Assembly (NCBI RefSeq): GCF_023715605.1
Contig: NZ_JAMBOL010000008.1
Coordinates: 1-64,000 of the forward strand
Reading direction: 5' to 3'
DNA: 64,000 bases
DNA from: Halalkalibacter oceani
GTDB lineage: Bacteria; Bacillota; Bacilli; Bacillales; Bacillaceae_D
Under the pieces are notes generated by a model, which saw only the letters and a program-made list of their open reading frames with translations, did not search any database and was not told the origin of the DNA. Shown here one piece after another: positions 1,217 through 33,432 of this stretch. Each line of letters opens with the position of its first letter. Position 1 is the stretch's first letter. Position numbers and translations under genes: made by a program.

Positions 1217-1272
1217 AAAAAAACTGAAGGGGGAGCGGGAAGGTTGATTTGTCACCTTTTGCCCAGCCCCAC
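1217..1272 (-). terminator. Terminator downstream of fadE
   Basis: On the minus strand, GGGGCTGGGCAAAAGGT pairs imperfectly with ACCTTCCCGCTCCCC, followed by CTTCAGTTTTTTT. The GGGCAAAAGGT stem recurs at other gene ends in the window. Confidence 0.6.
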
Positions 1273-1288
1273 CCTCTTTTCAAATCTC

Positions 1289-3067
1289 CTAGCTGATATA
1301 GCCGCTCTCCTCGAGAACCGCAGCGGCAATCAGCCGTTTTTTCTTTACCACATCAATCGCTTCGTGCCGTGTCAGCTTGCGCAAAATACCGAGCAGCATC
1401 CGCCGCTGATCGCCCTCCTCCATCATAATCAGAGATTCCTTTGCGTTGGCCTCAATCCGCTGAAACGCTTCCTGGCAGAAGATTTGCGTCATGATAAGCT
1501 TCCGGTCCCCTTTGTCGTTCGCCCCGCTTCGTGCCTTTTCCGTCCGTAAAATAGCTGACTCCATCTGATAAATATCATTGACAATATCGGCGACATTGGC
1601 AAGCAGCTCCTGCTCCTGCTGCAATGCTTCGCCGTATGTTCGAACGCCCAGACCCGCAACAAAAAGAAAGATCTTCTTCGCCATTGAAAGCAGCTGCTTT
1701 TCCTGTTCGAGCGGCCCTGACCCGACCTCGGCCGGAAGCAGCTGAACAAGCTCCTCTTGCAGCGCTCCCGCTTTTTCCAAAAGGGGAAGCTCGCCTTTCA
1801 TCGCTTTGCGCAGCAATGTGCCGGGGACGATCAGCCGGTTGATTTCATTCGTCCCTTCAAAAATCCGGTTAATTCGTGAATCACGATACATCCGTTCCAC
1901 TTCATATTCCGCCATATACCCATAGCCGCCATGGATTTGCACCGCCTCATCGACAACAAAATCAAGCAGCTCTGAGCCGGCAATTTTATTCAGTGAGCAC
2001 TCAATCGCATATTCGGCGATCGCCCCTGCGACAGCGCGCCCGCTTTTCTGCTCCTCCTCTGTTAAGCTGCCGAAGCGTTGCTCGATTAATCCCCCGGTCC
2101 GATAGACCGCGCTTTCTGTCGCGTATGTCGCGACCGCCATTTCCGCCAGCTTCTCCTGAATTAAGCGAAATTGTCCGATCGGCGTGTTGAATTGTTTACG
2201 CTCATTTGCATAGCCGGCCGCCAGCTCAATCGCCCGTTTGGCGCTGCCTACACAGCCGACTCCAAGCTTAAATCGTCCAATGTTCAAAATGTTGAAGGCG
2301 ATCAGATGACCTTTCCCCGCTTCTCCAAGCAAATTCTCCTTCGGCACCTGGGCATTTTCCAAAATAACAGTCCGAGTCGAAGAGCCTTTAATGCCCATCT
2401 TCTTCTCTTCTATCCCTGTCTTCACACCTTCGAAATCCCGCTCAACGATAAAGGCGGAGAATGCCTTGCCATCGATTTGCGCATAAACAATAAAAAGATC
2501 CGCAAAAGCTGAATTGGTAATCCATTGCTTTTCCCCGTTTACTACATAATGTGTCCCCGCTTCATTCAACACCGCCGTCGTTTTCGCACTGAGCGCATCC
2601 GATCCCGAGCTCGGTTCAGTTAATGCGTAAGCGGCAATCCGTTCTCCTGTCGCCAAGGAAGGGAGATACTTTTTCTTTTGCTGTTCATTTCCGAAAAAGA
2701 CAATCGGCAAAGAGCCGATGCCGACATGCGCGCCATGGCTTAAGGCAAAGGAGCCTCCACGCGCCAGTTTTTCGGCGATCAAGGTCGAGCTGATTTTATC
2801 AAGCCCGAGGCCGCCATATTCCTCAGGAATGTCAGCGCCGAGCAGGCCAAGCTCGCCTGCCTGTTTCAGGAGCTGAATGGTATGCGAGAATTCATGCTGC
2901 TCAATCTTATCGAGCAGCGGTACGACTTCATTGACGGTAAAATCAGCCGTCAGCTTGGCGATCATTTTTTGTTCATCAGTGAAATCCTCCGGAGTGAAAC
3001 TATCTGCTGCCGCATCCTCAATTAAAAAGCTGCCGCCTTTCACGGTCCGATCCGACGTTTGCCCCAT
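1289..3067 (-). CDS. fadE: Acyl-CoA dehydrogenase FadE (YusJ type)
   Basis: FAD-dependent first oxidation step of beta-oxidation, acyl-CoA to trans-2-enoyl-CoA. The ACAD core fills residues 25-415, with the FAD/substrate signatures AYALTEPSSGSDA (about 145-157) and QIHGGYGYMAEYEVER. The catalytic glutamate is E404 in RIFEGTNEINRL. A further 180 residues follow the core, giving 592 in all, close to the long B. subtilis YusJ form rather than a 380-residue ACAD. The start is placed after GGAGGAG. It is the last gene of fadN-fadA-fadE, 28 bp after fadA. Confidence 0.95.
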   Translation of the reverse strand: MGQTSDRTVKGGSFLIEDAAADSFTPEDFTDEQKMIAKLTADFTVNEVVPLLDKIEQHEFSHTIQLLKQAGELGLLGADIPEEYGGLGLDKISSTLIAEKLARGGSFALSHGAHVGIGSLPIVFFGNEQQKKKYLPSLATGERIAAYALTEPSSGSDALSAKTTAVLNEAGTHYVVNGEKQWITNSAFADLFIVYAQIDGKAFSAFIVERDFEGVKTGIEEKKMGIKGSSTRTVILENAQVPKENLLGEAGKGHLIAFNILNIGRFKLGVGCVGSAKRAIELAAGYANERKQFNTPIGQFRLIQEKLAEMAVATYATESAVYRTGGLIEQRFGSLTEEEQKSGRAVAGAIAEYAIECSLNKIAGSELLDFVVDEAVQIHGGYGYMAEYEVERMYRDSRINRIFEGTNEINRLIVPGTLLRKAMKGELPLLEKAGALQEELVQLLPAEVGSGPLEQEKQLLSMAKKIFLFVAGLGVRTYGEALQQEQELLANVADIVNDIYQMESAILRTEKARSGANDKGDRKLIMTQIFCQEAFQRIEANAKESLIMMEEGDQRRMLLGILRKLTRHEAIDVVKKKRLIAAAVLEESGYIS

Positions 3068-3095
3068 CGTTTTCTCCTCCTTTTTTCGCTACCAG

Positions 3096-4274
3096 TTAGC
3101 CGATTAATTCAAATACGCCGGCTGCTCCCATCCCGCCGCCAATACACATCGTCACAACACCAAACTGCTGCCCGCGCCGCTTCATCTCATGCATTAACGT
3201 CAGCGTCAGCTTTGTTCCCGTACAACCGAGCGGATGGCCGAGAGCAATCGCCCCGCCGTTGACATTGACCTTTTCTTCATCAAGCTTCAGCTCGCGAATG
3301 ACTTGAAGTGCCTGAGCGGCAAACGCCTCGTTCAACTCGAACAGCCCAATGTCCTCCAGCTGCAAACCGGCCATTCTTACCGCCTTCGGAATTGCCTCTA
3401 CCGGGCCAATGCCCATGATTTCCGGGGCAACACCCGCCACGGCAAAGGAACGAAACTTTACGACAGGACTCAGCCCTCTGGCAACGGCCTGATTTTTCTC
3501 CATCACCAGGACCGCCGCCGCTCCATCACTCATTTGCGAAGCATTGCCGGCTGTTACAGTCCCTTTTGGATGAAATACCGGTTTGAGCTGCTTGAGCACC
3601 TCAACAGTCGTCTCCCGCCTTACCCCTTCATCAACCGCAAAGGTAAACGGTTCCTCGACGAGCTGCTCCTGATCAACGGCTCGTTTAACACCCTCAACGG
3701 CGATGATTTCCTCGTTAAACCGCCCCGCTTCCTGGGCAGCGCCGGCGCGTTTATGACTTTCAGCAGCAAACGCATCCTGATCCTCGCGCGAAACACCAAA
3801 GCGGCGCGCGACTTCTTCCGCCGTATGTCCCATTGTCATATAATACTCAGGCTGTTCGCTGATCAGACGGGGGTTGGCGGCAATCACATGACCGCCCATC
3901 GGAATCATGCTCATCGACTCGACTCCTCCCGCGATGATCGCATTCGCCTGACCGAGCATAATTTTTTCCGCCGCAAACGCAATGCTTTGCAGGCCGGATG
4001 AGCAATAACGATTCACGGTGATCGCCGGCACGCGATGCGGCATTCCGGCCAGCATCGCGATCGTGCGCGCGACATTCATCCCCTGCTCGGCCTCAGGCAT
4101 CGCGCAGCCGATGATCAGATCATCAATGTCAGCGGCATCGAAATGATTTGCCCGCTTTAACGTCTCCTCGACGGTTAAGGCGCCTAAGTCATCGGGCCGT
4201 ACAGCGGCAAGGCTCCCGCGCTTTGCTTTTCCGACCGGCGTCCGTGCACCGGCAACAATAACTGCCTCTTTCAT
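3096..4274 (-). CDS. fadA: 3-ketoacyl-CoA thiolase FadA (YusK type)
   Basis: Catalyses thiolytic cleavage of 3-ketoacyl-CoA, the last beta-oxidation step. The 392 residues are typical of thiolases. Visible catalytic elements are the nucleophile C91 in [10 protein letters not shown], the GHPLGCTG histidine loop near residue 348, and the second cysteine in [11 protein letters not shown] near 378. AAGGAAGGATGG precedes the ATG. It is the middle gene of the FadR-type operon, 21 bp after fadN. Confidence 0.95.
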
Positions 4275-4295
4275 ATGCCATCCTTCCTTTCTCCT

Positions 4296-6656
4296 TTAAT
4301 TGCGAAGCGGTTTTCTTTTCAGTAGCATATGCTGCATCCGCTGCTGTGTCTTCGGTTCTCCGATCAGGCTTAGGAAAGCCTCGCGTTCAAGGTCAAGCAA
4401 ATATTGTTCATCGACATACGCGCCTTTTGCCACCCGTCCTCCGGCGATGACAAAGGCAAGCTTATCGGCAATTTTTACATCATGCTCAGAAATTCTCCCG
4501 CCGGTTTTCAGCGCTTTGGCACCGAGCAGCATCGTCGCGTAGCCGGTTTCCCCGACGACGGGGATCGGCCGCTTTTGCGGAGGGCGGTAGCCTTTTTCAG
4601 CCAGATGAATGGCCTGCCGCTTCGCTTCGGCAATGATGAAGGCCTGATTGGCAATCCAATCATCACGTTCGCTGAAAAATCCGATCTCTCTTGCTTCCTC
4701 GGCCGAGGTGGATACTTTCGCCATCGCGACCGTTTCAAAAACAGCATTGGCGATTGGCTGCAGATCGAGCTTCACTCCTGACGGGAGCCGTTCCAGCTGA
4801 CGAAGATACAGCTCCTTATTTCCACCGCCTCCCGGAATCAGGCCGACACCGACTTCGACTAAGCCGATATACGTTTCCAATGCGGCTTGAATGCTCGCTG
4901 ACGGAAGGCATATTTCAGCACCACCGCCAAGCGTCATCCCGTACGGCGCCGTCACAACTGGAACAGCGGCATAGCGAATCGCCGCGGATGCCTGCTGAAA
5001 TTGCCGGACGACATAATCAATCTCCGGATAGTTGTCATCCTGTGCTTCCATCAGCAGCAGCATCAAATTCGCGCCAACACAAAAGTTTTTGCCGTAATTG
5101 CCGATCACAAGCCCCTGATAGTTCTGTTCTACCTCGACAATCGACTTGCGGATCATCTGAATGGCATCAAGCCCGATTGAATTGGTCTCAGAGTGAAATT
5201 CCAGCAAGGCGACCCCGTCGCCAATATCATGAAGCGACGCTCCGGCATTTTTCATAATCAGCTTATCCGCTTTTGACAGATGAATGATTTTTTCTGATAC
5301 AGCCGGTAGCTCATACTGTCCCTGATTGTAAAAGCTGTCCTCATGATAAAAACGATCAAAACCTTTATCGAGCATCTCCTTGATCCAATCGGGTACCGTT
5401 TCGCCTTCCTTCTCCATCCGCGTCACAGTTTCGGCGACACCGAGGGCATCCCAAATCTCAAAAGGACCCAGCTCCCAGCCGAACCCCCATTTCATCGCCT
5501 GATCAATTGATTGAATCTCATTGGCGATTTCATCAACCTTTTCCGCCGAAAATAACAGCAAAGGCTTGAGAATGGCCCAGACGAGCCGTCCGGCGCGATC
5601 CTCGGCAGCCGCCATCATCTTTATCTTTTCCCGTGCGTTTTTTGCTTTCTTTGCCTGCTCAACAGACGGAGCCTGCAGCTTTTTTCGTCGTTCGTATTCA
5701 AGCGTATGAGGGTTAATTTCAAGAATGCCGTCCGGCTGTTTTTTGTAAAAGCCTTGCCCAGCCTTAGCGCCGATCCAGCCCTTGTCAACCATCTCCCGGA
5801 TAAAAGCGGGCGGTGTCATAACTTCGCGTTCTCTGCCGCTGGCGACCTTTGTAACGTTTTGCGCCACATGCAAAAACGTATCGAGGCCGACAACATCGAG
5901 CGTGCGAAAGGTCGCGCTTTTCGGTCTACCAAGCAGAGGCCCGGTAACAGAATCGACTTCCCCAATCGAATATCCATTGGCAAGCATCTCGTTGACGGTG
6001 CTGAGCAGTGAAAATGTCCCGATCCGGTTAGCGATAAAATTGGGCGTATCTTTACATAACACAACCCCTTTTCCGAGTGTCGTTTCAGCAAACGCTTTCA
6101 TAAAAGTCGTGATTTCGTCATTTGTGCGTGATGTTGGAATGAGTTCTAGTAAAGGTAAGTATCTGGGGGGATTGAAAAAATGAGCACCAAGAAAATGGGC
6201 AGAAAACTCGTCAGAACAGCCGGCTGCTATTTCCTCAATTGAAATTCCGGATGTATTCGAGGTAACAATTGCATCTTGCTTCCGCACCGGCTCAATCATC
6301 CGCATGATCTCTTTTTTAACATCAATATTTTCGACGACGGCTTCAATAATCCAGTCAACGGTTTTCAGCTTATGCAAATCATCTTCGAGGTTCCCTGGTT
6401 CGATGTAGGATAGACGTTGTTTACTGACAAGAGGGGCCGGTTTTTGTCCTTGCAGTTTGTTGATTGCTTCAAGGCTGTAGCGATTACGCACGCTTTGATC
6501 AGCAAGTGTGGCGCCATGCTTCTTCTCCATTGGTGTCAGTTCTTCTGGAACAATATCGAGCAGAATCGACGGAATTCCAATGTTGGCTAAATGGGCGGCA
6601 ATTCCCGAGCCCATAACACCAGAGCCGATCACTGCGGCTTTACGAATACGACGCAT
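4296..6656 (-). CDS. fadN: 3-hydroxyacyl-CoA dehydrogenase / enoyl-CoA hydratase FadN
   Basis: Bifunctional beta-oxidation enzyme. The order is NAD-binding dehydrogenase first (AAVIGSGVMGSGIAAHLAN at the N-terminus), dehydrogenase C-domains in the middle, and a crotonase-type hydratase domain after about residue 470. This is the reverse of E. coli FadB and matches Bacillus YusL. Three ATGs run together (6662, 6659, 6656); AGGAGG ends only 2 bp before the first, so the third gives the best spacing and 786 residues. It is first gene of fadN-fadA-fadE and is directly preceded by a FadR box. Confidence 0.93.
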   Translation of the reverse strand: MRRIRKAAVIGSGVMGSGIAAHLANIGIPSILLDIVPEELTPMEKKHGATLADQSVRNRYSLEAINKLQGQKPAPLVSKQRLSYIEPGNLEDDLHKLKTVDWIIEAVVENIDVKKEIMRMIEPVRKQDAIVTSNTSGISIEEIAAGCSDEFSAHFLGAHFFNPPRYLPLLELIPTSRTNDEITTFMKAFAETTLGKGVVLCKDTPNFIANRIGTFSLLSTVNEMLANGYSIGEVDSVTGPLLGRPKSATFRTLDVVGLDTFLHVAQNVTKVASGREREVMTPPAFIREMVDKGWIGAKAGQGFYKKQPDGILEINPHTLEYERRKKLQAPSVEQAKKAKNAREKIKMMAAAEDRAGRLVWAILKPLLLFSAEKVDEIANEIQSIDQAMKWGFGWELGPFEIWDALGVAETVTRMEKEGETVPDWIKEMLDKGFDRFYHEDSFYNQGQYELPAVSEKIIHLSKADKLIMKNAGASLHDIGDGVALLEFHSETNSIGLDAIQMIRKSIVEVEQNYQGLVIGNYGKNFCVGANLMLLLMEAQDDNYPEIDYVVRQFQQASAAIRYAAVPVVTAPYGMTLGGGAEICLPSASIQAALETYIGLVEVGVGLIPGGGGNKELYLRQLERLPSGVKLDLQPIANAVFETVAMAKVSTSAEEAREIGFFSERDDWIANQAFIIAEAKRQAIHLAEKGYRPPQKRPIPVVGETGYATMLLGAKALKTGGRISEHDVKIADKLAFVIAGGRVAKGAYVDEQYLLDLEREAFLSLIGEPKTQQRMQHMLLKRKPLRN

Positions 6657-6691
6657 CATCATATCCTCCTTTTGAGCAGGCTAGATCGGAT

Positions 6692-6709
6692 TGAATGAAT
6701 ATTCATTCA
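6692..6709 (-). promoter_or_regulatory. FadR operator
   Basis: TGAATGAATATTCATTCA is a perfect 18-bp palindrome and matches the B. subtilis FadR consensus TGAATGANTANTCATTCA at every fixed position. It starts about 10 bp after the fadN -10 box, where a repressor would cover the transcription start. In B. subtilis FadR binding is relieved by long-chain acyl-CoA, so the same control is inferred here. Confidence 0.93.
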
Positions 6710-6718
6710 GTTTAGTTT

Positions 6719-6747
6719 AGGATACCGGAATGCTGCCCGTTTTGCAA
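6719..6747 (-). promoter_or_regulatory. Sigma-A promoter of the fadNAE operon
   Basis: TTGCAA (-35, 6742-6747) and TATCCT (-10, 6719-6724) lie 17 bp apart on the minus strand, immediately upstream of the FadR box. Confidence 0.65.
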
Positions 6748-6898
6748 GGAAGATTCTGAAAAAAATGTAATCTCCTGTTTCCTCGCTAATAACTGGAACT
6801 TACTCCTCGTACTGACTGGATAAATGTCACTCGTTTTTTTCACACTATAACATGTATCCGTCCAACGGATATGTCTTTGACAACAAAGGGGGATTCTC

Positions 6899-7177
6899 AT
6901 GCAACAGCAGCAAATGAATCAATTTCAAGCCAATCAGCAGCAACCGATTATGCCTGAGCCGCCGGCTGTTATTTCAACGAAGGATCAGCTTTATCTTACA
7001 GATATGCTGTCTTGGAACTTACTTGCGATGAAAAAAGCCCACTTCTTTGCTGAACAATGTCAGGACCAGGAAATTAAGCAGGTCCTTGATCAAGCAGGTC
7101 AAATGCACCAGCGTCATTACACAAAGATCTTGAACCATCTGCAGGCGACAAATCAGCAAGCTGCATCGCTTCAATAA
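6899..7177 (+). CDS. Coat F-like spore protein (YusN-like), first of two
   Basis: A 92-residue Gln-rich protein. A low-complexity N-terminus (MQQQQMNQFQANQQQP) is followed by a helical CotF-type segment (STKDQLYLTDMLSWNLLAMKKAHFFAEQCQD, given here in part) seen in spore-coat proteins. Similar proteins assemble on the spore surface; the exact role is unknown. AAAGGGGGA precedes the ATG. It is divergent from fadN and 29 bp ahead of a second CotF-like gene, so the two are probably one sporulation operon. Confidence 0.75.
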   Translation: MQQQQMNQFQANQQQPIMPEPPAVISTKDQLYLTDMLSWNLLAMKKAHFFAEQCQDQEIKQVLDQAGQMHQRHYTKILNHLQATNQQAASLQ

Positions 7178-7206: not shown

Positions 7207-7533
7207 ATGAATCAACAGCAAAAGATTCAAAATCCGGAAATGCAAGTTCCAAAAACCCCGCAAATGTCAGAGCGCGACTTTCTCAACGACCAACTGTCGA
7301 CTGAGAAATATATGACTTCCGGCTACGGCATTTTTTTAAATGAAGCCAGCCATCAACAGCTGTATCAGGATATTGCAGGCATTTTCCAGGAAACCCAGGA
7401 CTGCCAGCGCCAGCTCTATACTACGATGTTCCGTAAAGGGTTCTATGCGCTTGAAGCAGCCGACCAGCAAAAGCTGTCTCAGGAGTACCAACAGTTTTCT
7501 GGATATAGCAACCAATTTCCTTATCAGCAGTAG
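7207..7533 (+). CDS. Coat F-like spore protein, second of two
   Basis: A 108-residue CotF-family protein. The core SERDFLNDQLSTEKYMTSGY leads into a helical segment with FLNEASHQQLYQDI, which is typical of the family, and the C-terminus is Gln/Tyr-rich. GAGGAGG lies 8 bases before the ATG. It pairs with the gene 29 bp upstream. Expression in the mother cell during sporulation is expected from the family; I could not identify a convincing SigE or SigK promoter by eye. Confidence 0.8.
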   Translation: MNQQQKIQNPEMQVPKTPQMSERDFLNDQLSTEKYMTSGYGIFLNEASHQQLYQDIAGIFQETQDCQRQLYTTMFRKGFYALEAADQQKLSQEYQQFSGYSNQFPYQQ

Positions 7534-7553
7534 AGAAAAGGACTAAGATGAAA

Positions 7554-7597
7554 AGCCTGGGTCAGAAAGGTGAAAATCAGCCTTTCTGGCCCAGGCT
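7554..7597. terminator. Strong intergenic hairpin after the coat genes
   Basis: AGCCTGGGTCAGAAAGG (7554-7570) pairs almost perfectly with CCTTTCTGGCCCAGGCT (7581-7597). There is no T-run on the plus side; on the minus side it is followed by TTTTC. It separates the coat genes from larC2. Confidence 0.55.
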
Positions 7598-7648
7598 CAT
7601 GCTATACTAAGGGCAAAAAGATGAACGCTACGAAAGGAATGTGACACA

Positions 7649-8131
7649 TTGCGCTTAGACTTTTCCCATAAAGATGAACATATCGATGAGCATATGATCA
7701 AGCTGGAAGTTAATCTTGATGATATGTCGCCCGAATGGCTTGGTCATTTGCTTGATAAACTGCTCGAAAAAGGGGCAAACGATGTCTTTTACATACCGAT
7801 CTACATGAAAAAAAACCGGCCGGGTGTGATGCTGCAGCTTCTTTGTGCCGCGAATAAGCTGGACGAGCTTAAGACGCTTATTTTCGCCGAAACGACGACG
7901 CTCGGCGTCCGCTACTACCCGCTCCACGTTCACCGGCTTGAACGGCGCTTTCGCCAGGTCGAGACTCCCTGGGGCGCTGTGACGATCAAGGAAGGACTCC
8001 ATAACGGCCAGGTCGTCCAGGCCGCGCCGGAGTATGACGATTGCAAGCGTCTGGCCGAAGAAGCGGCGATTCCGCTCAAGCATGTGTTTCAGGCTGTTTG
8101 GAAGGAGTTACCGCGCTATCAGCGCGATTGA
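7649..8131 (+). CDS. larC2: LarC C-terminal domain as a separate protein (LarC2)
   Basis: A 160-residue protein equal to the C-terminal half of LarC, the CTP-dependent nickel insertase that completes the nickel-pincer nucleotide cofactor. It has the conserved block LEVNLDDMSPEWLGHLLDKL (19-38), then GANDVFYIP and MKKNRPGVMLQLLC (53-66). TTG start with AAAGGA about 10 bases upstream; a TATACT -10-like box lies at 7603-7608. LarC is normally one protein, or two co-directional overlapping frames read by programmed frameshift as in Lactiplantibacillus plantarum. Here the C-domain is on the opposite strand and its last 13 bp overlap the end of larC1. Together the halves make 404 residues, close to a full LarC. 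Confidence 0.88.
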   Translation: MRLDFSHKDEHIDEHMIKLEVNLDDMSPEWLGHLLDKLLEKGANDVFYIPIYMKKNRPGVMLQLLCAANKLDELKTLIFAETTTLGVRYYPLHVHRLERRFRQVETPWGAVTIKEGLHNGQVVQAAPEYDDCKRLAEEAAIPLKHVFQAVWKELPRYQRD

Positions 8132-8853
8132 CCTAATACGACACGAAGGACATTTGGGTGGTGCGGGAAATCCTTTTCTCCCGCCCCATAACCGATTTTT
8201 TCCACGGTCATGCTCGGCATCGGCCCAAATTCTGAGACAATCCCTTTTAAAATTCCCGCGCCTGTCGGTGTCGTCAGTTCGCCACGGATCGTCGTGCTTT
8301 CGACAGGGATCTCCGTCAGCATTTCCAATGTGGCCGGTGCAGGAATCGGATAGACGCCATGATCGATATGGATCGTCCCGGAACCGACAACGACCGGCGC
8401 GGCGACTATTTTTTCGACCTCCAGCTGTTCCAGCGCGAGTGCCGTCCCGACAATATCGACAATGGAGTCAACCGCGCCGACTTCATGAAAGTGAACCTTT
8501 TCCAACGAAGAATGATGAATCTTCGCTTCCGCCTCGGCGATCGGTTGAAAAATTTGCAGGCTCAGCTGCTTGACATTGTCAGAAAGCGCTTCACATTCTT
8601 CGATCATTTTTTTAATCGTAGAGAAGTGACGATGATTTGTCGCGCGCTCGTCTTCCTTTTCAATCACTTTAAATTGCTGGGCGTAGATGCCTTTTTTGAT
8701 GACGCCCTCAGCCTTTATCGTAAATGGCTCAATCGGCAGGCTCGACAGCTTTGCTTCAATCTCGGCCACATCGGCGCCAAGATCGATTAACGCTCCCATC
8801 GTCATATCCCCGCTAATGCCGGACAGGCTGCAATCGATATATAACGTTTTCAT
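8119..8853 (-). CDS. larC1: LarC N-terminal domain (LarC1), nickel insertion protein
   Basis: A 244-residue N-terminal half of LarC. Family blocks are YIDCSLSGISGDMTMGAL (5-22), the HFHEVGAVDSIVDIVG motif (about 121-136), GVYPIPAPATLE and TPTGAGIL. It ends in PNVLRVVLGQSR, just where fused LarC proteins cross into the C-domain, so this is a clean domain boundary. It follows larB by 11 bp with AGGAGTACAGCAA before the ATG, in the leftward larE-larB-larC1 operon. Its missing domain is encoded convergently by larC2; I infer that the two polypeptides work together. Confidence 0.92.
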   Translation of the reverse strand: MKTLYIDCSLSGISGDMTMGALIDLGADVAEIEAKLSSLPIEPFTIKAEGVIKKGIYAQQFKVIEKEDERATNHRHFSTIKKMIEECEALSDNVKQLSLQIFQPIAEAEAKIHHSSLEKVHFHEVGAVDSIVDIVGTALALEQLEVEKIVAAPVVVGSGTIHIDHGVYPIPAPATLEMLTEIPVESTTIRGELTTPTGAGILKGIVSEFGPMPSMTVEKIGYGAGEKDFPHHPNVLRVVLGQSR

Positions 8854-8864
8854 TTGCTGTACTC

Positions 8865-9614
8865 CTATTCTTTTTTTATTCGTGAAATGAGCGCAGCCTG
8901 ATACGCCGCACCAAATCCATTATCTATGTTCACAACCGAGACGCCGGACGCGCATGAATTAAGCATCGTCAAAAGAGCGGCGACCCCATGAAAGCTCGCC
9001 CCGTAGCCAATGCTTGTCGGCACTGCTAAGATCGGCTGCTGGACAAGTCCGCCGACTACGCTGACCAGCGCTCCTTCCATTCCGGCAACGACAATTAATA
9101 CATCACATGTGCGAATTTGCTCAAGCTGATCAAAAAGACGGTGGATGCCAGCGACGCCGATATCATAAAAGCGGGCGATTTCAAGCCCCATTGCCTGGGC
9201 CGTTATCGCCGCTTCTTCGGCGACAGGCAGATCACTCGTCCCGGCGCAAAGCACGCCAACTTTGCCATAGCTGCGGAAGCTTTTTCGCTCGTCATAGAGC
9301 AGCGTTCGGGAACATTCATCATAGGTCACATGGACAAGCTGTGGCACTAATTGTTCAGCCTTCTCCTTTGATATTCTCGTCGCTAAAACGGTTTCATGAT
9401 GGGTCATTAAACGGGAGAAGATCGCTTGAATTTGCTCCGCTGTTTTTCCTTCCCCATAAATCACCTCGGGAAAGCCTTTACGCTTTACCCGCTGGACATC
9501 GATCTTGGCAAAGCCGTCAATATCCTCATAGCCTTTTATTTGTTCATAGGCTTCCTCTGCCCGAAGCTCTCCAGCTTCGACCTTTTTCAGCCATTCCTTG
9601 ATTTCATTGCTCAT
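8865..9614 (-). CDS. larB: LarB, pyridinium-3,5-biscarboxylate mononucleotide synthase
   Basis: Carboxylates and hydrolyses nicotinic acid adenine dinucleotide in the first step of nickel-pincer cofactor synthesis. The 249 residues include a C-terminal PurE/AIR-carboxylase-like domain (about 115-240; VLCAGTSDLPVAEEA, DIGVAGIHRL, AVPTSIGYGASFHG). C221 in NSCASGVSVV has the same number as the L. plantarum cysteine reported to form the substrate adduct, and NIDNGFGAA follows. Its ATG overlaps the larE stop (ATGA), so the two are translationally coupled. Confidence 0.93.
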   Translation of the reverse strand: MSNEIKEWLKKVEAGELRAEEAYEQIKGYEDIDGFAKIDVQRVKRKGFPEVIYGEGKTAEQIQAIFSRLMTHHETVLATRISKEKAEQLVPQLVHVTYDECSRTLLYDERKSFRSYGKVGVLCAGTSDLPVAEEAAITAQAMGLEIARFYDIGVAGIHRLFDQLEQIRTCDVLIVVAGMEGALVSVVGGLVQQPILAVPTSIGYGASFHGVAALLTMLNSCASGVSVVNIDNGFGAAYQAALISRIKKE

Positions 9615-10447
9615 GCATTCTGCTCCTTACTACCTGCTGCCAGTACTTCATTCATGCTTCCGGTACGATACCCTTGAAGGTCAAGTGTCACATACTGAAA
9701 GCCGATTTCTTTAAAACGTTTATGAATCGTTTCATGATAATCAATCACTTTTTGCAATTCATTCGGCATCACTTCAATTCTCGCCAGCTTCTCATGATGG
9801 CGGACACGCACCTGATAAAAGCCAAGCTTTAATAAAAAGTCTTCCGCGAGGTCGAGCTGATCAATCGCTTCCTGTGTAATTCGTTTACCGTAAGGGATTC
9901 GCGAAGACAGGCAGGCGAATGACGGTTTGTTCCACGTTCGCAGATTCATTTCTTTTGAAAGATCTCTAATCTCCTGCTTCGTTAACCCGGCTTCAAGCAA
10001 CGGGCTTCTCACCCCTTGCGAGCGGGCCGCCTTCATCCCCGGACGATAGTCACCGACATCATCACGGTTTGCGCCGTCAAGAATAAATGGATACCCTTCC
10101 TTTTGCGCCAGCTCATTTAAATGCTGATACAAGCCGTCTTTGCAGTGGAAGCAGCGGTCCGGTTCGTTTTTCACAAAGTTCTCGTTCGCCAGCTCACTTA
10201 CCTCGGTTTTCATATATTTAACGCCCATCTCTTGCGCAAGGGCAATCGCTTCATTGAATTCACGTGTCGGGAACGTTTCTGAAGCTGCTGTTACAGCAAT
10301 AACTTGATCCCCCAATACTTCTTTGGCACGCGCTAATAAAAACGTACTATCTACTCCTCCGGAAAAGGCCACCAGCACGCGCTCCATGGAACGTAAAATG
10401 TCATCGAGATGCGCAAGCTTTTCTGCTGTTGAATGGGTTTGTTCCAT
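9611..10447 (-). CDS. larE: LarE, sulfur transferase for nickel-pincer cofactor (three-Cys type)
   Basis: Adenylates and thiolates the pyridinium carboxylates of the LarB product. The 278 residues carry a PP-loop SGGVDST (29-35) and DGANRDDVGDYRPG. In L. plantarum a single cysteine (C176) is sacrificed; its counterpart here is C179 in SFACLSSRIPYG. This protein also has C99 and C102 (DRCFHCKDG), where the L. plantarum protein has none. That three-cysteine pattern is known from LarE enzymes that bind a [4Fe-4S] cluster, so catalytic rather than sacrificial sulfur transfer is likely. First gene of larE-larB-larC1, downstream of a hairpin that ends the catabolic operon. Confidence 0.92.
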   Translation of the reverse strand: MEQTHSTAEKLAHLDDILRSMERVLVAFSGGVDSTFLLARAKEVLGDQVIAVTAASETFPTREFNEAIALAQEMGVKYMKTEVSELANENFVKNEPDRCFHCKDGLYQHLNELAQKEGYPFILDGANRDDVGDYRPGMKAARSQGVRSPLLEAGLTKQEIRDLSKEMNLRTWNKPSFACLSSRIPYGKRITQEAIDQLDLAEDFLLKLGFYQVRVRHHEKLARIEVMPNELQKVIDYHETIHKRFKEIGFQYVTLDLQGYRTGSMNEVLAAGSKEQNA

Positions 10448-10579: not shown

Positions 10580-11560
10580 TTATTTACCATTTCCATAGAT
10601 CTCATCATTCACAATATGAGTCAGCCGCTCCCCCGCCAAGCCTTTTTCAATATTTTCGATCGCCAGGGTGGCCATTTTCATTCTTGTTTCGACATTCGCA
10701 CTTCCAATATGAGGAAGAGCGATCACATTGTGAAGCGTCAGCAAAGGATGATCGTTTGAAATTGGTTCTGTTTCAAAAACATCCAGACCGGCAGCAAAGA
10801 TTTTTTCTTCTTTTAACGCCTGATACAATGCTTCTTCGTCAACATTCGTGCCGCGTGATGTATTAATAAAAACAGCGGTCTTCTTCATCATCTCAAATTG
10901 CTCATGAGAAATCATGTTTTTCGTTTCCGGAGTCGACGGGGCCAGCAGTACGACGTAATCCGACTGTCGCAGCAGCTCCTCAATGGAACAATACACAGCG
11001 CCCAATTCAGCCTCGGCCTCCGGCTTGCGCGAACGGTTATGGTAAAGAATGTTCATATCGAACCCTTTGGCGCGTCTTGCCACACCTTGTCCGATTCTTC
11101 CCATGCCGATGATGCCGATTGTCGCTTTGTAAAGGCTTTGCCCTGTTAGCAAAAACGGGCCCCAGCTCTGCCACTCATTGCGCCGGATTACATCCATTCC
11201 TTCCACAATTCGCCGGCTCGTCGCGACCAAAAGGGTAAAGGTTAAATCGGCTGTCGCTTCCGTTAACACACCGGGAGTGTGTCCGACCGCAATGCCGCGC
11301 GCCGTCGCCGCTTCCATATCAATATTGTCATAGCCAACCGCCATTGTACTGATCACTTTCAACGAAGGTGACTGCTCAATAAGCTGCTTATCAATACGGT
11401 CGGCAACATTTGTAAACACCGCGTCAGCATCCTTCATCTCCTGAAGCAGGCGTTCATAAGGCATCGGCTCATTTTCCCGATCCCACATGAAAATATCATA
11501 TTTTTCTTTCAGAGGCTCTACTAATTCAGTCGGAATCTTTCTCGTAAATACAATCTTCAC
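10580..11560 (-). CDS. D-isomer-specific 2-hydroxyacid dehydrogenase (glyoxylate/hydroxypyruvate reductase type)
   Basis: NAD(P)-dependent interconversion of a 2-hydroxyacid and its 2-oxoacid. The 326-residue protein has the Rossmann motif GIIGMGRIGQGVARRA (about 148-163) and the catalytic Arg in INTSRGTNVDEEAL. The catalytic Glu lies in DVFETEPI and the His in LPHIGSANVETR. Sequence style and length fit D-glycerate/hydroxypyruvate/glyoxylate reductases. GTG start behind AAGGAGG. Last catabolic gene of the operon, 23 bp after the PdxA2-like gene; it could recycle glyoxylate or hydroxypyruvate, or act on the pathway acid. Substrate not provable from sequence. Confidence 0.88.
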   Translation of the reverse strand: MKIVFTRKIPTELVEPLKEKYDIFMWDRENEPMPYERLLQEMKDADAVFTNVADRIDKQLIEQSPSLKVISTMAVGYDNIDMEAATARGIAVGHTPGVLTEATADLTFTLLVATSRRIVEGMDVIRRNEWQSWGPFLLTGQSLYKATIGIIGMGRIGQGVARRAKGFDMNILYHNRSRKPEAEAELGAVYCSIEELLRQSDYVVLLAPSTPETKNMISHEQFEMMKKTAVFINTSRGTNVDEEALYQALKEEKIFAAGLDVFETEPISNDHPLLTLHNVIALPHIGSANVETRMKMATLAIENIEKGLAGERLTHIVNDEIYGNGK

Positions 11561-11583
11561 AGCTCCAGTTCCTCCTTCGTCCC

Positions 11584-12582
11584 TTACCCGCGTTTTGGCG
11601 CTAAATCAATTGCTTGACGCATCGCTTCGATCAAGCTTTGTTCGCTCGCAATTCCTTTTCCGGCAATATCAAAGGCAGTTCCGTGATCGACACTTGTACG
11701 AATGATCGGCAGCCCAACTGTAATGTTGACGCCAGCTTCTAAGCCAAGCACTTTGATCGGTCCGTGTCCTTGGTCATGATACATCGCAACCACAATATCA
11801 AAGTCGCCACGGTTCGCGCGGAAGAACAGTGTATCAGCCGGAAGTGGACCGACAACGTCGATTCCTTCCTCTTGCGCTTTTTCCACAGCCGGTACAATCT
11901 TTTCTTCCTCTTCTCCGTAGCCGAAAAGCCCGTTTTCGCCAGCGTGAGGGTTGATTCCACAGACGGCGATCTTAGGCGCCTTAATTCCGGCACGCTTCAA
12001 TGTTTCATCGGCAAGCTTAATCACTTTATACGTTCGTTCTGGATTGATCAGCTTCACTGCATCAAGCAGCCCGACATGTGTCGTAACATGAATCACTCGC
12101 AATGTCGGCGAGGAAAGCATCATCGCAAAGTCCTTTGTTCCCGTCAGCTCAGCCAAAATTTCCGTATGGCCGGGGAAAATATGTCCCCCTTTATGAAGAG
12201 CCTCCTTGTTTAAAGGCGCGGTACAAATTCCTTCAATCTCTCCATTGTTAGCCAGGGCAATCGCCTTTTCCAAGAAACGGAAGGAACCATCACCGGCAAC
12301 AGCGGAAATTTCACCAAACGGCAAATCAGCAGGGAGTAAATCTAAATCGATACAATCGACTGTGCCATATTCAAATGCAGCCTCTTCGACTGATTGAATC
12401 GAACGAACCGTCAAGTTTGTCTTAACGACCTCATTCGCCCGCTTGAGGATTTTCGCATCTCCTACGACGAAAGGAGCACAGCTCTCATAGAGCGATTGAT
12501 CGGCCAGGGATCTCATAATGATTTCAGGTCCGACCCCCGCTCCATCCCCCATCGTAATGGCAATTCTTGGTTTTTCACTCAT
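11584..12582 (-). CDS. PdxA2-like 4-phospho-tetronate dehydrogenase
   Basis: A PdxA-family NAD-dependent oxidative decarboxylase, about 332 residues. Visible are the N-terminal IAITMGDGAGVGPEI, TAPLNKEALHKGGHIFPGHTE (in part), the metal-binding GINPHAGENG, and YHDQGHGPIK with SVDHGTAFDIAGKG. In PdxA2 enzymes the substrate is D-threonate or D-erythronate 4-phosphate and the product is dihydroxyacetone phosphate plus CO2. The DUF1537 kinase in the same operon strongly favours this role over pyridoxine synthesis. The third codon ATG (12582) was chosen for spacing from AAGGTGG; 12588 is the alternative. Confidence 0.9.
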   Translation of the reverse strand: MSEKPRIAITMGDGAGVGPEIIMRSLADQSLYESCAPFVVGDAKILKRANEVVKTNLTVRSIQSVEEAAFEYGTVDCIDLDLLPADLPFGEISAVAGDGSFRFLEKAIALANNGEIEGICTAPLNKEALHKGGHIFPGHTEILAELTGTKDFAMMLSSPTLRVIHVTTHVGLLDAVKLINPERTYKVIKLADETLKRAGIKAPKIAVCGINPHAGENGLFGYGEEEEKIVPAVEKAQEEGIDVVGPLPADTLFFRANRGDFDIVVAMYHDQGHGPIKVLGLEAGVNITVGLPIIRTSVDHGTAFDIAGKGIASEQSLIEAMRQAIDLAPKRG

Positions 12583-12603
12583 GTCCATTCCACCTTCACA
12601 CTA

Positions 12604-13809
12604 TTAATAAGCTTGCTTTAACAATTCAACCAGGCTGGCTTGATTCGGAACGCGTGGGTTGTTACGCACTAAACGCTCGATTGGCAATGCTTTTTCAGCA
12701 ATGCTTTCAAGATCTTCTTCTTTCACGCCGATCTCGGACAGCTTCGTCGGAAGGTTAATATCTTTTAGAAGCTGAAGAACCGCTTCTGAGGCTGCTTCTG
12801 CGTATTCTCTTGTTGTTTTTGAGCCTTGTTCGATACCGAATGCCTGAGCAATTTTGACCATTTTGTCTTGCTCTGTAGCTGTATTATACTTCATTACATA
12901 AGGAAGTAGTAGTCCTGTCAGCTCACCATGAGGGGATTTTGCTTTTCCGCCAATCGGGTACGCAAGGGCGTGCGCTAAAGCTGTTCCGGCATTCGAGAAC
13001 GCTAAACCGGCAAGCAGGCTTCCAAGCAGCATATTGCCGCGCGCTTCTAAATTACTTCCCTGTTGAACCGCGACCGCCAAGTTACCGGCAATAAGCTCGA
13101 TCGCTTGAAGCGCAAGCGCATCTGTAATTGGCAAAGAGCCTTGGAACAGAAGCTTTTCTTTTGATTGAATATAACGGAAATCTTTTGCTGTATATGCTTC
13201 TACAGCGTGAGAAAGCGCGTCGATTCCTGAACATGCCGTTACATAAGGAGGCAATCCTACCGTTAATTCCGGATCAAGCAAGGCGACTGCCGGACGAAGG
13301 AAGTTATCGGAAATCCCTACTTTGATATTGTTTTCCGTATCGGTAACAACCGCTACTGACGTTACTTCCGAACCAGTACCAGCCGTTGTTGGGATCGCGA
13401 TTAACGGCGCAATCGGTCCAGGTACGAGGTTTTCGCCGCCGAAATAATCTGTCGGGTGTCCGCCGTATTCCATTAACAGGGCCACAACCTTCGCCAAGTC
13501 GATACTGCTTCCCCCGCCAAGTCCAATGATGACATCTGTCTTCATTTGTGATTTTGCAAATTCATACGCTTCGACAACACTTTCAATCGGCGGCTCCGGA
13601 ATCGCTTTATCATACACAACCGTCTGGTAACCATGCAAATCCAATTGCTCAGTCACTTTCGCTAAAATGCCCGCCTGAGCAACTCCTCTGTCTGTGATGA
13701 CGAAAACATTTTTAGCCTTTAATCGCTTTAACGCTCCATCAAGTCGAGTAATGGCTCCATTTCCAAAAATAATATTCTCAGTTGAAAAATATTCCCATGT
13801 GTTTCTCAT
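12604..13809 (-). CDS. Iron-containing alcohol dehydrogenase
   Basis: A group III (Fe-ADH) NAD(P)-dependent alcohol dehydrogenase, 401 residues. The nucleotide-binding loop is IGLGGGSSIDLAK (about 95-107) followed by PTTAGTGSEVT. Metal ligands lie in SGIDALSHAVEAY, ALAHALAYPIGG and SPHGELTGLLLPY. Likely substrates in this operon are a polyol or a hydroxyaldehyde feeding the neighbouring aldehyde dehydrogenase. Its ribosome site (GAAGGG) is about 10 bases upstream, and a strong hairpin separates it from the aldehyde dehydrogenase gene. Confidence 0.9.
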   Translation of the reverse strand: MRNTWEYFSTENIIFGNGAITRLDGALKRLKAKNVFVITDRGVAQAGILAKVTEQLDLHGYQTVVYDKAIPEPPIESVVEAYEFAKSQMKTDVIIGLGGGSSIDLAKVVALLMEYGGHPTDYFGGENLVPGPIAPLIAIPTTAGTGSEVTSVAVVTDTENNIKVGISDNFLRPAVALLDPELTVGLPPYVTACSGIDALSHAVEAYTAKDFRYIQSKEKLLFQGSLPITDALALQAIELIAGNLAVAVQQGSNLEARGNMLLGSLLAGLAFSNAGTALAHALAYPIGGKAKSPHGELTGLLLPYVMKYNTATEQDKMVKIAQAFGIEQGSKTTREYAEAASEAVLQLLKDINLPTKLSEIGVKEEDLESIAEKALPIERLVRNNPRVPNQASLVELLKQAY

Positions 13810-13870
13810 TCTCGCTCATCCCTTCAGGTTTGTTTGTCTTTTCCTTTTCTATCGAAGCTGTATGTAGGTT

Positions 13871-13902
13871 TGATCCGGAAGGCATTCCTCCCCTCCGGAT
13901 CA
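13871..13902. other. Hairpin between aldehyde and alcohol dehydrogenase genes
   Basis: TGATCCGGA (13871-13879) pairs with TCCGGATCA (13894-13902). There is no T-run, so an RNA stability or processing element within the operon is more likely than a terminator. Confidence 0.5.
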
Positions 13903-13935
13903 GAAAGAAAGCGACAGCTCCAACCTACCACGCTC

Positions 13936-15378
13936 TTAAAGCTGGATTGTAATTAACTTCTCGTCTGTCATTTCTTCCACCGCGCTGCGTGGACCTTCTT
14001 TGCCGACACCGCTGTCCTTCACGCCGCCATATGGCAAAATATCAACGCGGAAAGTGGAGACATCATTGATGTTAACACCACCGAATTCAAGCACTTGAGC
14101 AGCCTTCATCGCAAGCTCCAGATTTGACGTGAAGAAGCCGGCCTGCAAGCCGAATTTCGAATCGTTCGCCGCAGCGAATGTTTCATAAATATCATCATAA
14201 GGAATGATGCTGACAATCGGCGCAAAGACCTCTTCACACATAACCTTCATTTCTTCTTTTACATCCGTCAATACAGTCGGCTGGAATAACGCTCCATCGC
14301 GCTTGCCGCCCGTAATGATGCGCGCTCCATGCTCAGCCGCTTCCTGCACCCATTTCTCGGCACGTTCTGCTTCGTTGATACTGATCATTGGTCCGATGTT
14401 CGTTGCTTCGTCCTCCGGATTACCAACGACAAATGCTTCTGCGACTTTTTTCGCTTTTTCGAGTACCTCTTCGTAAATATCACGGTGAACATAAATGCGC
14501 TGAACTGAAATACAAGCTTGCCCGGAGTTTACATACCCTCGTGATACACAAAGCTCGACAGCACGGTCAAGATCAGCAACATCATGATGAATAATATTCG
14601 GGGAGTTATTTCCTAATTCAAGAGTCACCTTACGAATCCCTGTCTGACTCTTAATCATTTTTCCAACAGTCGGACTGCCGGTGAACGTGTACATCGCAAT
14701 GCGCTCGTCTTCAAGCAAAAGTGGCCCTACTTCATGACCGAAACCATTGACGACATTTAAGAAGCCTTTAGGCAAGCCGGCTTCCAGGAGGATTTCTGCC
14801 ATCTTGATTGCGGATACCGGCGTTTTTTCAGCAGGCTTCAACACAACCGTATTGCCAGCTGCGATCGCAGGAGCAACTTTGTGAGCAGTTAAATTAAAAG
14901 GGAAGTTAAATGGGGTAATCGCACAGACAACACCAACAGGAACGCGGATAGAAAACGCCATTTTCTCTTCGTTGCCCGGTTGACCGTGAATCGGCATTCC
15001 TTGACCGGTAATCCGTTTTGCTTCCTCGGCGGATGCGATAAATGTCGCGATTCCGCGATCTACTTCACCGCGTGCATCTTTAATCGTCTTACCTACTTCG
15101 CGCGTAATCGCCAGGGCAATATCCTCTTTCCGCTCTTCGAAAAGCTGAGCCGCCTTCATTAAAATTTCGTAGCGCTTTGTCGCAGGAAGCTTGACAGAGT
15201 TAAATGTCTCTTTCGCATTCGCGACCGCTTTATCAACTAATGCTTTATCTGCTTTTGCAATTTCTGCATAAGGCTCATGAGTGTATTTGTTTTCGACCGT
15301 AAATGTCTCAGTTCCTTCGATCCATTGACCATCTACCAGGTTTCCGTAGGTAACCACCTTGTCTGTTTGTGTATTCAT
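13936..15378 (-). CDS. NAD(P)-dependent aldehyde dehydrogenase
   Basis: ALDH superfamily, 480 residues. Seen are the substrate/cofactor motif AITPFNFPFNLTAHK, the FTGSPTVGK loop, the Glu motif as LELGNNSPN (Glu before GN rather than the usual GGK) and the catalytic cysteine in NSGQACISVQR. The closest families by style are lactaldehyde, succinate-semialdehyde and non-phosphorylating glyceraldehyde-3-phosphate dehydrogenases. In this operon it could oxidise a tetrose or glycolaldehyde to the acid used by the DUF1537 kinase. GAGGAGG precedes the ATG, but a 217-bp structured gap separates it from the gene upstream. Confidence 0.9.
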   Translation of the reverse strand: MNTQTDKVVTYGNLVDGQWIEGTETFTVENKYTHEPYAEIAKADKALVDKAVANAKETFNSVKLPATKRYEILMKAAQLFEERKEDIALAITREVGKTIKDARGEVDRGIATFIASAEEAKRITGQGMPIHGQPGNEEKMAFSIRVPVGVVCAITPFNFPFNLTAHKVAPAIAAGNTVVLKPAEKTPVSAIKMAEILLEAGLPKGFLNVVNGFGHEVGPLLLEDERIAMYTFTGSPTVGKMIKSQTGIRKVTLELGNNSPNIIHHDVADLDRAVELCVSRGYVNSGQACISVQRIYVHRDIYEEVLEKAKKVAEAFVVGNPEDEATNIGPMISINEAERAEKWVQEAAEHGARIITGGKRDGALFQPTVLTDVKEEMKVMCEEVFAPIVSIIPYDDIYETFAAANDSKFGLQAGFFTSNLELAMKAAQVLEFGGVNINDVSTFRVDILPYGGVKDSGVGKEGPRSAVEEMTDEKLITIQL

Positions 15379-15399
15379 TTGTTCGTCCTCCTCATGATT

Positions 15400-15590
15400 T
15401 GGTTTAAGAAAACCGCGTAGCGGCTTTTCTTAGAAGCGGCGTGCGAAGCGTTACATCTTTTAAGAATGGCTGAAAACGAGCTTGTTTCCAGCCATCCGCG
15501 TAACGTGCGAAGCCGACGCCCTTCCTCGAATCTACCCGCAAGGTAGACTTTCTTATGAACTCTCCTGTCGGTTGACATGATAAGCCCGAA
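15400..15590. other. Hairpin-rich intergenic element upstream of the aldehyde dehydrogenase gene
   Basis: This 217-bp gap within the operon has no credible gene. It holds AATGGCTGAAAAC paired with GTTTCCAGCCAT around 15466-15500, a smaller stem AAGAAAACCGC/GCGGCTTTTCTT around 15408-15432, and two copies of GTGCGAAGC flanking the larger stem. It could be a dispersed repeat or an mRNA structure; short frames inside it look spurious. Confidence 0.5.
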
Positions 15591-15595
15591 ATCAA

Positions 15596-16846
15596 TTAAA
15601 ATCCGTTAAAATAACCTTCTCCGTCAAATTCCATCTCTTTCAATTGCCCGATTACTTCTACATTATCAAGCTTCTCAACTTCAGGCAATAACGATTCTGA
15701 AACATAAAGCTCTTCGAGATGAAGGGTATTCGGAATTCTCATAAAACGGATTTCCTCCGCCTTCTTTCCCCAGCTTCCCCGCAGAGCCGTTTCGATTGCT
15801 GCGCGATCGCTTTCCAGAACAATCGGCACGCTTGCCCGCTTCAAAAATGTGCTCGTAATGACATTCTCGTTCATCTTCTTGTAATCAATTTTGTCGAAGA
15901 AGCGTTTTGTCGTCAAATCGGCGAGCCCGATTCCGAGTGCATTTCCGTGCGAAGCCTCGCTCAAATCCGAAGTAATAATATAGTCGATTTGCGGTGTTTC
16001 AGGCTCCTTCGTATTCAAAATGCGAAGGCGGCCGATCACATTCGTATCCATCCCGGTTCCACTATAGTTTTTGCCGATCTCATCAACGAAAAGAACGTCA
16101 ATCTTATCGACTGGAAGCTTCGGCATTAACGACTTCGAAAAATTCAATAACGCTTCTTCGCGCTCCTTGATCTTTTCCACCGGAATGACTTCAATTTCAG
16201 CCGTATCTTCAAAAGCATTCTCGACGATTCCAATTCCCATCAGAATCTTGCCACTTTTGAAAACTTCCTCGGCGACAAGCGGCATATGATCGCGGATTCC
16301 GACGACACCAAGCGTGTGGATCGCCTGCGCCTGCTTATGATTACCAAGACCGATTGAAGCTACTTTCATCAAGCCGCTCTCAATGTTCGCAGAGAAATCA
16401 GTATGAGCTTTAATCCGGTTGACGAGGATTACGCCGTCCGACTCGTAGGCGATTTTGTCCATGTACACTTTGATGCCAGCTTCTGTCACGCCAATTTCCT
16501 CTACTTCCATCGAAGAGCGGATTTCAGCACCACAATATTCTTCCGTCACACCAAGACTTTCCAAGACTTCAATTTGTCCTTCAGCCGTCGCCCCGCCATG
16601 GCTTCCCATGGACGGCACAATAAAGGGATGACCGCCGCGCTTTTTCACTTCATCAGCTGCCGCACGAATAATCTTCGCGATATTGGCAATTCCTCGGCTG
16701 CCTGCCGTAATGGCAATGCTCATTCCTGGCTTTACTCGCTCAGCAATTTCCATTTTTGCAAACTCTTCCGCTACTTTCTCATCAATATTCGCAACGGACG
16801 GTCCGGTAAAATGCTGTTTGATCTTGACGATTTTAGGTAAACTCAT
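15596..16846 (-). CDS. LarA-family nickel-pincer racemase/epimerase homologue in the tetronate operon
   Basis: A 416-residue protein of the lactate racemase (DUF2088) superfamily, but of a different branch from the LarA at 25 kb. Candidate catalytic and cofactor residues are H83 in SMGSHGG, H148 in RIKAHTDF, K161 in GLMKVASIGLGNH (the place of the lysine that tethers the pincer cofactor in LarA) and H170 or H177. LarA enzymes invert the C2 carbon of 2-hydroxyacids using a nickel-pincer cofactor. Genes for making that cofactor lie in the same run, and the flanking kinase and PdxA2-like enzyme use tetronates. I infer C2 epimerisation of a tetronate (erythronate/threonate type). GAAGGTGA precedes the ATG. 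Confidence 0.85.
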   Translation of the reverse strand: MSLPKIVKIKQHFTGPSVANIDEKVAEEFAKMEIAERVKPGMSIAITAGSRGIANIAKIIRAAADEVKKRGGHPFIVPSMGSHGGATAEGQIEVLESLGVTEEYCGAEIRSSMEVEEIGVTEAGIKVYMDKIAYESDGVILVNRIKAHTDFSANIESGLMKVASIGLGNHKQAQAIHTLGVVGIRDHMPLVAEEVFKSGKILMGIGIVENAFEDTAEIEVIPVEKIKEREEALLNFSKSLMPKLPVDKIDVLFVDEIGKNYSGTGMDTNVIGRLRILNTKEPETPQIDYIITSDLSEASHGNALGIGLADLTTKRFFDKIDYKKMNENVITSTFLKRASVPIVLESDRAAIETALRGSWGKKAEEIRFMRIPNTLHLEELYVSESLLPEVEKLDNVEVIGQLKEMEFDGEGYFNGF

Positions 16847-16881
16847 TCACCTTCACTCCATTCTTTTTCTTTCATCTTGAA

Positions 16882-18635: not shown

Positions 18636-18660
18636 AGTTGTTCTCCCTTCCTATGAGGAG

Positions 18661-18747: not shown

Positions 18748-18761
18748 AACATTGTTTCAAA

Positions 18762-19781: not shown

Positions 19782-19792
19782 GATAGTTCCCC

Positions 19793-31826: not shown

Positions 31827-31840
31827 TTCACTCACAAAAA

Positions 31841-33419: not shown

Positions 33420-33432
33420 TTCGGCTATTGTC

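Follow-up and report, generated by a model that had tools for sequence, protein, structure and literature searches.

The window, by which we mean the whole stretch of 64,000 nucleotides that was analysed, carries the two halves of the nickel insertase LarC as separate genes on opposite strands, at the tail of a minus-strand row of lar genes. The genes and signals considered here are as follows.

6899-7177 and 7207-7533, plus strand: two small genes that mark the chromosomal place of larC2, the second coat-F-like
7554-7597, plus strand: hairpin of 18 pairs between the coat gene and larC2, from an RNA fold
7600-7608, plus strand: TGcTATACT, an extended -10-like candidate promoter element of larC2, read from the sequence
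7632-7639, plus strand: ribosome-site-like GAAAGGAA, 9 nt before the TTG of larC2 and identical in the relative G007
7649-8131, plus strand: larC2, the C-terminal half of LarC as a gene of its own, TTG start, 160 aa
8119-8131: tail-to-tail overlap of larC1 and larC2, 13 bp, from the ends of the open reading frames
8119-8853, minus strand: larC1, the N-terminal half of LarC and last gene of the lar row, ATG start, 244 aa
8865-9614, minus strand: larB, adjoining larC1 (NF033503, over cut-off)
9611-10447, minus strand: larE (TIGR00268, over cut-off)
15596-16846, minus strand: LarA homologue, NPN-dependent isomerase group 22 (NF052515, 540.5 bits, cut-off 400)
25124-26386, minus strand: LarA, nickel-dependent lactate racemase model (NF033504, 556.9 bits, cut-off 460)

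In a profile search of the window's open reading frames, LarC1 matched positions 1-235 of the Pfam family Ni_insertion (PF01969; 305.8 bits) and LarC2 positions 236-374 (173.4 bits; profile length 375). The two proteins together cover the profile without a gap, the split falling between neighbouring positions, which confirms the statement of the first-pass annotation that LarC1 ends at the usual domain boundary. Both proteins also score over the cut-offs of the NCBIfam models for LarC1 (TIGR00299) and LarC2 (NF052512). The whole genome, 99.95% complete by the tool's figure, contains no further PF01969 match at E 0.001; the two separate frames are its sole LarC matches, and no single open frame holds both domains. 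The same annotation had described larC2 as an intact plus-strand gene with a TTG start and a ribosome site, overlapping larC1 by 13 bp, and it had named a second larC, or an interrupted LarC2 frame, as findings that would speak against its reading. The description held: the frame is open, with GAAAGGAA upstream, and is intact in both the window and G007, and the PF01969 search of the genome revealed no second larC. As the frames lie on opposite strands, joining by a one-slip frameshift does not apply to this pair, and no single chain can be made from it. G007 has the same layout, with LarC1 and LarC2 each 98% identical to those of the window; an assembly error in a single genome therefore does not explain the layout.

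The start of larC2 is likely the TTG at 7649, judging from the sequence. It is the first possible start of the frame, and the eight codons that separate it from an upstream TGA (7622-7624) include no ATG, GTG or TTG; an alternative ATG occurs at codon 16. DNA similarity to the larC2 gene of G010, another genome of the genus, begins at the aligned TTG, which is preceded there by CAGGGGG; in the frame of G010, a further possible start precedes this TTG by 30 bp. An own promoter for larC2 is plausible, the -10-like sequence at 7600-7608 being a candidate element. The column of G010 aligned to it reads CTATATT in a spacer otherwise poorly alignable, and a sigma-70 scan did not include the candidate among its listed sites. 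The hairpin at 7554-7597 stands between the coat gene and this element. The fold of 7536-7625 reaches -38.5 kcal/mol (z -6.34, 0 of 200 shuffles as good); on the plus strand no T-run follows the hairpin, and the terminator scan did not list it. It is perhaps the terminator of the coat gene. The window also codes for an activator with a sigma-54 interaction domain (21202-23058). A sigma-54 promoter pattern matched 18 times in the window against 17.4 matches expected by chance, which is no evidence for such promoters.

Comparison with the relatives of the same genus bears on how larC2 came to face larC1. The coat-like gene at 7207-7533 has a Coat_F domain and a homologue in all 13 genomes of the genus, and its neighbour at 6899-7177 has only a sub-threshold match to DUF3231. 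larC2 stands beside the coat genes in three of these genomes (the window's, G007 and G010) and not in the other 10. In G010, fatty-acid genes, the two coat-like genes and larC2 (80.5% identity) occur in the order, place and strand of the window, and ABC-transporter genes follow larC2 in place of larC1. The larC1, larB and larE genes of G010 (48, 56 and 52% identity to those of the window) are found on another contig in other surroundings; no larC2 lies behind that larC1, and the genome has no other PF01969 match. Since larC1 and larC2 are 12.8 and 164 kb, respectively, from the nearest contig ends, they are truly unlinked. The coat genes of G004 are 91 and 94% identical to those of G010 and its next transporter genes 93 and 95% identical; no larC2 lies between them, and the larC2 of G004 is found behind its own larC1. 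In G003 and G008, the coat genes are directly followed by a homologue of the window gene at 32875-33285, so that, compared with these two genomes, the window has about 25 kb extra, reaching from larC2 to that gene.

The LarC2 tree of 28 rows places the window, G007 and G010 in one starred clade (99/94). Topology tests were performed on groups picked after quick trees had been seen, and with that proviso they rejected the grouping of G010 LarC2 with G004, G006 and G012 (p-AU 2.6e-05) and, in the 28-row tree, that of G010 LarC1 with the window and G007 (p-AU 6e-87). The LarC1 of G010 falls with G004, G006 and G012, with a support of 60/91 (unstarred). Thus, G010 seems to combine LarC1 and LarC2 from different lineages, a mixture that fits subunits meeting after translation. 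Together, the G010 locus and the trees argue that larC2 is an independent, exchangeable gene. The convergent layout is probably an incidental by-product.

A different history, compatible with this explanation, could well apply even though we hold it to be somewhat short of probable: the convergent pair may long have existed as a unit and have come in together with the lar island, of which G010 kept larC2 only. G020, a member of another genus, has a convergent pair elsewhere in its genome (72% identity for LarC1, 66% for LarC2), and the LarC1 proteins of the window, G007 and G020 form a starred clade. Furthermore, positions 6880-30949 share 91.5% DNA identity with G007, against 97-99% for the flanks, and hence this stretch behaves as one block. 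The larB and larE genes of G020, however, are on another contig and its larC pair is in other surroundings, and G010 has no other island gene at the coat-gene place.

The lar/hydroxy-acid island at 6880-30949 diverges from G007 as its own block, the identity being 98.7% over 1270-6886 and 97.1% over 30941-33890. One minus-strand row within it (10580-21067) codes for a TRAP transporter, a kinase, a PdxA-like protein, iron-alcohol and aldehyde dehydrogenases and the group 22 NPN isomerase. The nearest model of the kinase is that of D-threonate kinase, with a score below the cut-off. From its predicted products, the row appears to encode a pathway for four-carbon hydroxy acids that includes a racemase of its own.

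We then considered the overlap of the two 3' ends, which the first-pass annotation had suggested could couple the levels of the two genes through antisense transcripts. Among the 22 convergent loci examined, stop codons overlap in only three, namely the window and G007 (13 bp each) and G443 (33 bp). In two more, the stop codons abut or nearly do so (G503, 0 bp; G610, 2 bp), and in the remaining 17 they are 46 to 8112 bp apart, including a gap of 100 bp in G020. The G443 locus (L172, family f69) is a second, unrelated-looking convergent larC1/larC2 pair with overlapping ends. That the overlap is a regulatory device by which convergent transcripts tune each other appears unlikely. Its recurrence in another family and the near-contact of the stops in G503 and G610 would suit such a device. 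So would the terminator scan, which found two sites in the stretch, fewer than the 3.8 expected by chance; no site was listed at the junction and one weak plus-strand site (8679-8692) lies inside larC1, so read-through antisense RNA is plausible. In contrast, 19 of the 22 convergent loci have no overlap of stops (gaps of 0 to 8112 bp), and the 13 bp of G007 cannot prove constraint, as this relative is too close (98% protein identity). Overlap is therefore no rule, and antisense control finds little comparative support.

To place the window among its relatives, we surveyed larC layouts in class Bacilli. PF01969 was searched in 41 genomes at the family, 397 at the order and 398 at the class level, in overlapping sets, and matched in at least 9, at least 91 and at least 110 genomes, respectively. 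The layout count, which is one of genomes and not of events, took in 93 genomes, namely those with both halves among the matches listed and five relatives added separately. It was restricted to matches of up to 300 profile positions, which excluded fused genes as well as neighbouring pairs reported as a single match (e.g. G006). Among the matches listed, larC1 precedes larC2 on one strand with the matches within 150 bp in 27 of the 93 genomes and further apart in 18; the reverse order occurs in 4. Convergent halves were found in 26 genomes, divergent ones in 4 and halves on different contigs in 14, again among the matches listed. In two of the contig-separated genomes (G488 and G661), each half lies no more than about 1.3 kb from a contig end, and the two might therefore be neighbours; in two others (G400 and G361) the distance between the halves is possibly as little as about 11 kb. 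In G468, counted as convergent, LarC1 is in two overlapping frames. Fifteen genomes for which one half was missing from the list were kept out of the count and later re-listed with nine others. Of those set aside, G433, G451 and G335 (halves 18 kb apart) proved convergent, G139 divergent, and G166 and G368 same-strand. G245, G348, G614 and G701 have a full-length LarC match plus a separate LarC1. So do G091 and G291, but their full-length match is interrupted by stops and represents an adjacent pair. G473, G496 and G561 have one LarC match each.

Separate, often unlinked larC1 and larC2 genes are thus common in class Bacilli. The earlier claim that known LarC is only fused or frameshifted does not stand, the more so as NCBI has models for both halves. 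The comparison of larC loci across relatives that the first-pass annotation had suggested showed that the convergent layout recurs, for instance in G007, with 26 convergent genomes in the count above. In 10 rows, larB lies between larC1 and larC2, which makes assembly in trans necessary. Among named strains, larB has this position in loci of Oceanobacillus, Compostibacillus and Perspicuibacillus (L032, L046, L047, L049, L052 and L059), and this too excludes a single chain. For close same-strand pairs, frameshifting or stop read-through was rejected as a general rule. In 54 such loci, drawn from overlapping named and unnamed sets so that some strains are counted twice, 25 have a LarC2 frame that is already open ahead of the LarC1 stop; the other 29 do not, and in 14 of these, reading through just one in-frame stop would suffice. 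Joining of LarC1 to LarC2 is hence conceivable in many same-strand loci and excluded in others.

In trees of 116 rows, the convergent label requires at least six changes for LarC2 and at least five for LarC1, and the starred branches alone force three and two, respectively. These trees keep 18 fused rows as a sample. They were built without L003 and L054 (second copies of G006 and G016), without L005 and L045 (dropped by hand) and without loci missing a half or having short halves, among them L174 (G468). As the layout changes may be losses or gains, more than one convergent origin is likely, though not proved.

The first-pass annotation had attributed the convergent layout to an inversion that separated the domains; in a larC that was fused, or whose halves shared a strand, the 3' part would have been turned round. 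Same-strand pairs within 150 bp are the commonest single layout (27 of 93, among the matches listed), and given how common they are, inversion of a ready-made larC2 gene would need few steps. We nevertheless regard this as improbable, because separate genes are carried by relatives and halves occur in every relative position across the surveyed genomes. In addition, larC2 of G010 has the position and strand of the window's, with shared surroundings on one side but without larC1 next to it; in G004, a close relative of G010, that site has no larC2. No relative with larC2 reversed at the coat-gene place was found among those compared, and a search for inverted repeats at 7500-8900 (seed 9, minimum 12) returned two weak pairs, neither of which flanks larC2.

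The survey yielded several unusual proteins. Two genomes, G614 and G701, have LarC2 genes with a much diverged but clearly LarC1-related N-terminal domain (L265:6135-7343 and L266:6284-7501, respectively; best about 1e-19) and, near them, a well-conserved separate LarC1 gene. From these sequences, duplication and complementary decay of larC is possible. In family f68, LarC2 proteins of convergent loci carry an N-terminal stretch of about 160-240 aa (L173, L175, L177-L181 and L184-L188) with weak, collinear similarity to LarC1. A profile comparison did not establish its origin as a decayed LarC1 (probability 8.7%, P 0.0038 against P 0.024 for the unrelated LarC2-LarC1 pair used as control), and the N-terminal parts of the LarC2 proteins of G450, G508 and G528 gave no LarC1 match. 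At L182:2144-3268 (G625, family f76), the LarC2 frame continues into a long C-terminal stretch, DinB-like by eye. Finally, a partial LarB match and a LarC2 match overlap on one strand at G435:C64:70565-71302, both in 337-aa frames; perhaps a deletion fused two genes.

Both halves of the window's LarC look functional and under purifying selection from their sequences. Between the window and G007, dN/dS is 0.035 for larC2 (3 nonsynonymous and 21 synonymous changes) and 0.027 for larC1 (5.5 and 49.5). Among columns with at least 95% conservation across 112 other rows of the respective half, the window LarC1 keeps all 52 and LarC2 all 21. The partners of the pathway are present as well: larB and larE are adjacent to larC1, the group 22 LarA homologue shares their gene row, and the genome (G000) has six LarA-type matches, two of them inside the window. 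Among 60 genomes, the window's own included, the same 14 are positive for PF01969 and for LarA. A LarA match was found in 39 of the 44 genomes with convergent (26), divergent (4) or contig-separated (14) halves among the matches listed, the five without being G488, G514, G602, G744 and G768. Users of NPN other than LarA are suspected, according to passages of PMC11796402.

Single halves are informative in this respect. Ten class-level genomes have a single partial LarC match, not counting G499 and G678, which miss less of the profile. Eight of the ten have no LarB over the cut-off, which suggests decayed pathways and is expected if the loss of a half accompanies that of the pathway. In the remaining two, LarC is cut at a contig end (G580) or the partial match lies in a very long frame (G561). 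Three genomes of one genus (G490, G524 and G554) have LarC2 without LarC1, and none has LarB over the cut-off; LarC2 may have another use there or be a relic. That the window's LarC2 is likewise a decaying leftover, with the chemistry done by LarC1 alone, is the least probable reading, as these three genomes show that one half can persist alone but the dN/dS of larC2, its full set of 21 conserved columns and the absence of LarB over the cut-off from eight of the ten single-match genomes all argue against it.

We consider it probable, with good confidence, that the LarC of the window is a two-subunit CTP-dependent nickel insertase assembled in trans, its assembly and activity being deduced from gene content and conservation. 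LarC1 would be the product of the last gene in the minus-strand lar row and LarC2 that of a short plus-strand gene; once translated, the two proteins would associate and, using CTP, jointly insert nickel into the LarE product. The resulting nickel-pincer nucleotide would be used by the LarA-type isomerases of the genome. Here, larC2 would be an independent gene whose neighbours are the two small coat-like genes on one side and the tail of a lar operon or island on the other. The earlier proposal that LarC1 and LarC2 assemble in trans from two promoters thus survives in part: as both halves are intact and under purifying selection, they should work in trans from two transcripts, whereas the promoter of larC2 is no more than plausible. 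More tentatively, LarC may be a two-subunit enzyme in much of the Bacilli, with LarC2 exchangeable, so that a species such as G010 could do without the larC2 of its own operon, once lost, by using that of another lineage, and with some pairs derived by duplication of a full-length larC and complementary decay, as in G614 and G701.

The layout is real and conserved, yet it is not unique as a gene order, and its explanation is less special than first proposed. What is useful is the finding that many Bacilli have LarC as a two-gene enzyme whose parts are apparently exchangeable. Loci that bar a single-chain LarC offer a ready-made test of whether the domains need linking and of which half binds CTP, the substrate and nickel. 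Surveys that seek a single full-length larC gene will count the pathway wrongly in Bacilli.

Among known systems, passages of PMC11796402, PMC7583248 and PMC11770544 describe LarC as a CTP-dependent nickel insertase and the LarC proteins of M. thermoacetica and Synechocystis as active in E. coli. For other LarC proteins, CTP-dependent insertion of nickel into P2TMN is described in PMC11796402. A figure legend in PMC3496567 names separate larC1 and larC2 of L. plantarum and L. casei. PMC7702098 names larC1 and larC2 of Anaerobutyricum as two genes (EHLA_1342 and EHLA_1341) and reports both in the proteome; the EC number that it assigns to larC2 carries the label of a synthase. Word searches of the literature revealed no description of unlinked or convergent larC1 and larC2 in titles or abstract openings.

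Solved structures cover both halves of the window's LarC. The full-length LarC of PDB 12bi-12bl is one chain of 414 aa, in contrast to the two genes of the window; residues 1-242 of the window LarC1 align to 19-254 of that chain and residues 13-150 of LarC2 to 263-404. A LarC2-sized chain of PDB 6bwo, 6bwq and 6bwr, presumably from L. plantarum, matches the window LarC2. In Lactiplantibacillus plantarum, larC1 and larC2 are joined by a ribosomal frameshift. Its LarC has the same two domains as that of the window, but from consecutive frames on one strand instead of frames on opposite strands. On an L. paracasei plasmid, two frames are annotated apart on one strand, a UPF0272 protein, which we take to belong to the LarC family, followed by larC2. 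Paenibacillus cellulositrophicus (NZ_CP045296) has separate larC1 and larC2 genes as in the window, annotated as 'LarC family nickel insertion protein' and 'nickel insertion protein', but on the same strand with larE and larB upstream. The same layout is found in the convergent loci of families f54, f59, f68, f69 and f76 of the class, whose larC genes stand tail to tail like those of the window, most of them with a gap; many LarC2 proteins of f68 differ from that of the window by their additional N-terminal stretch.
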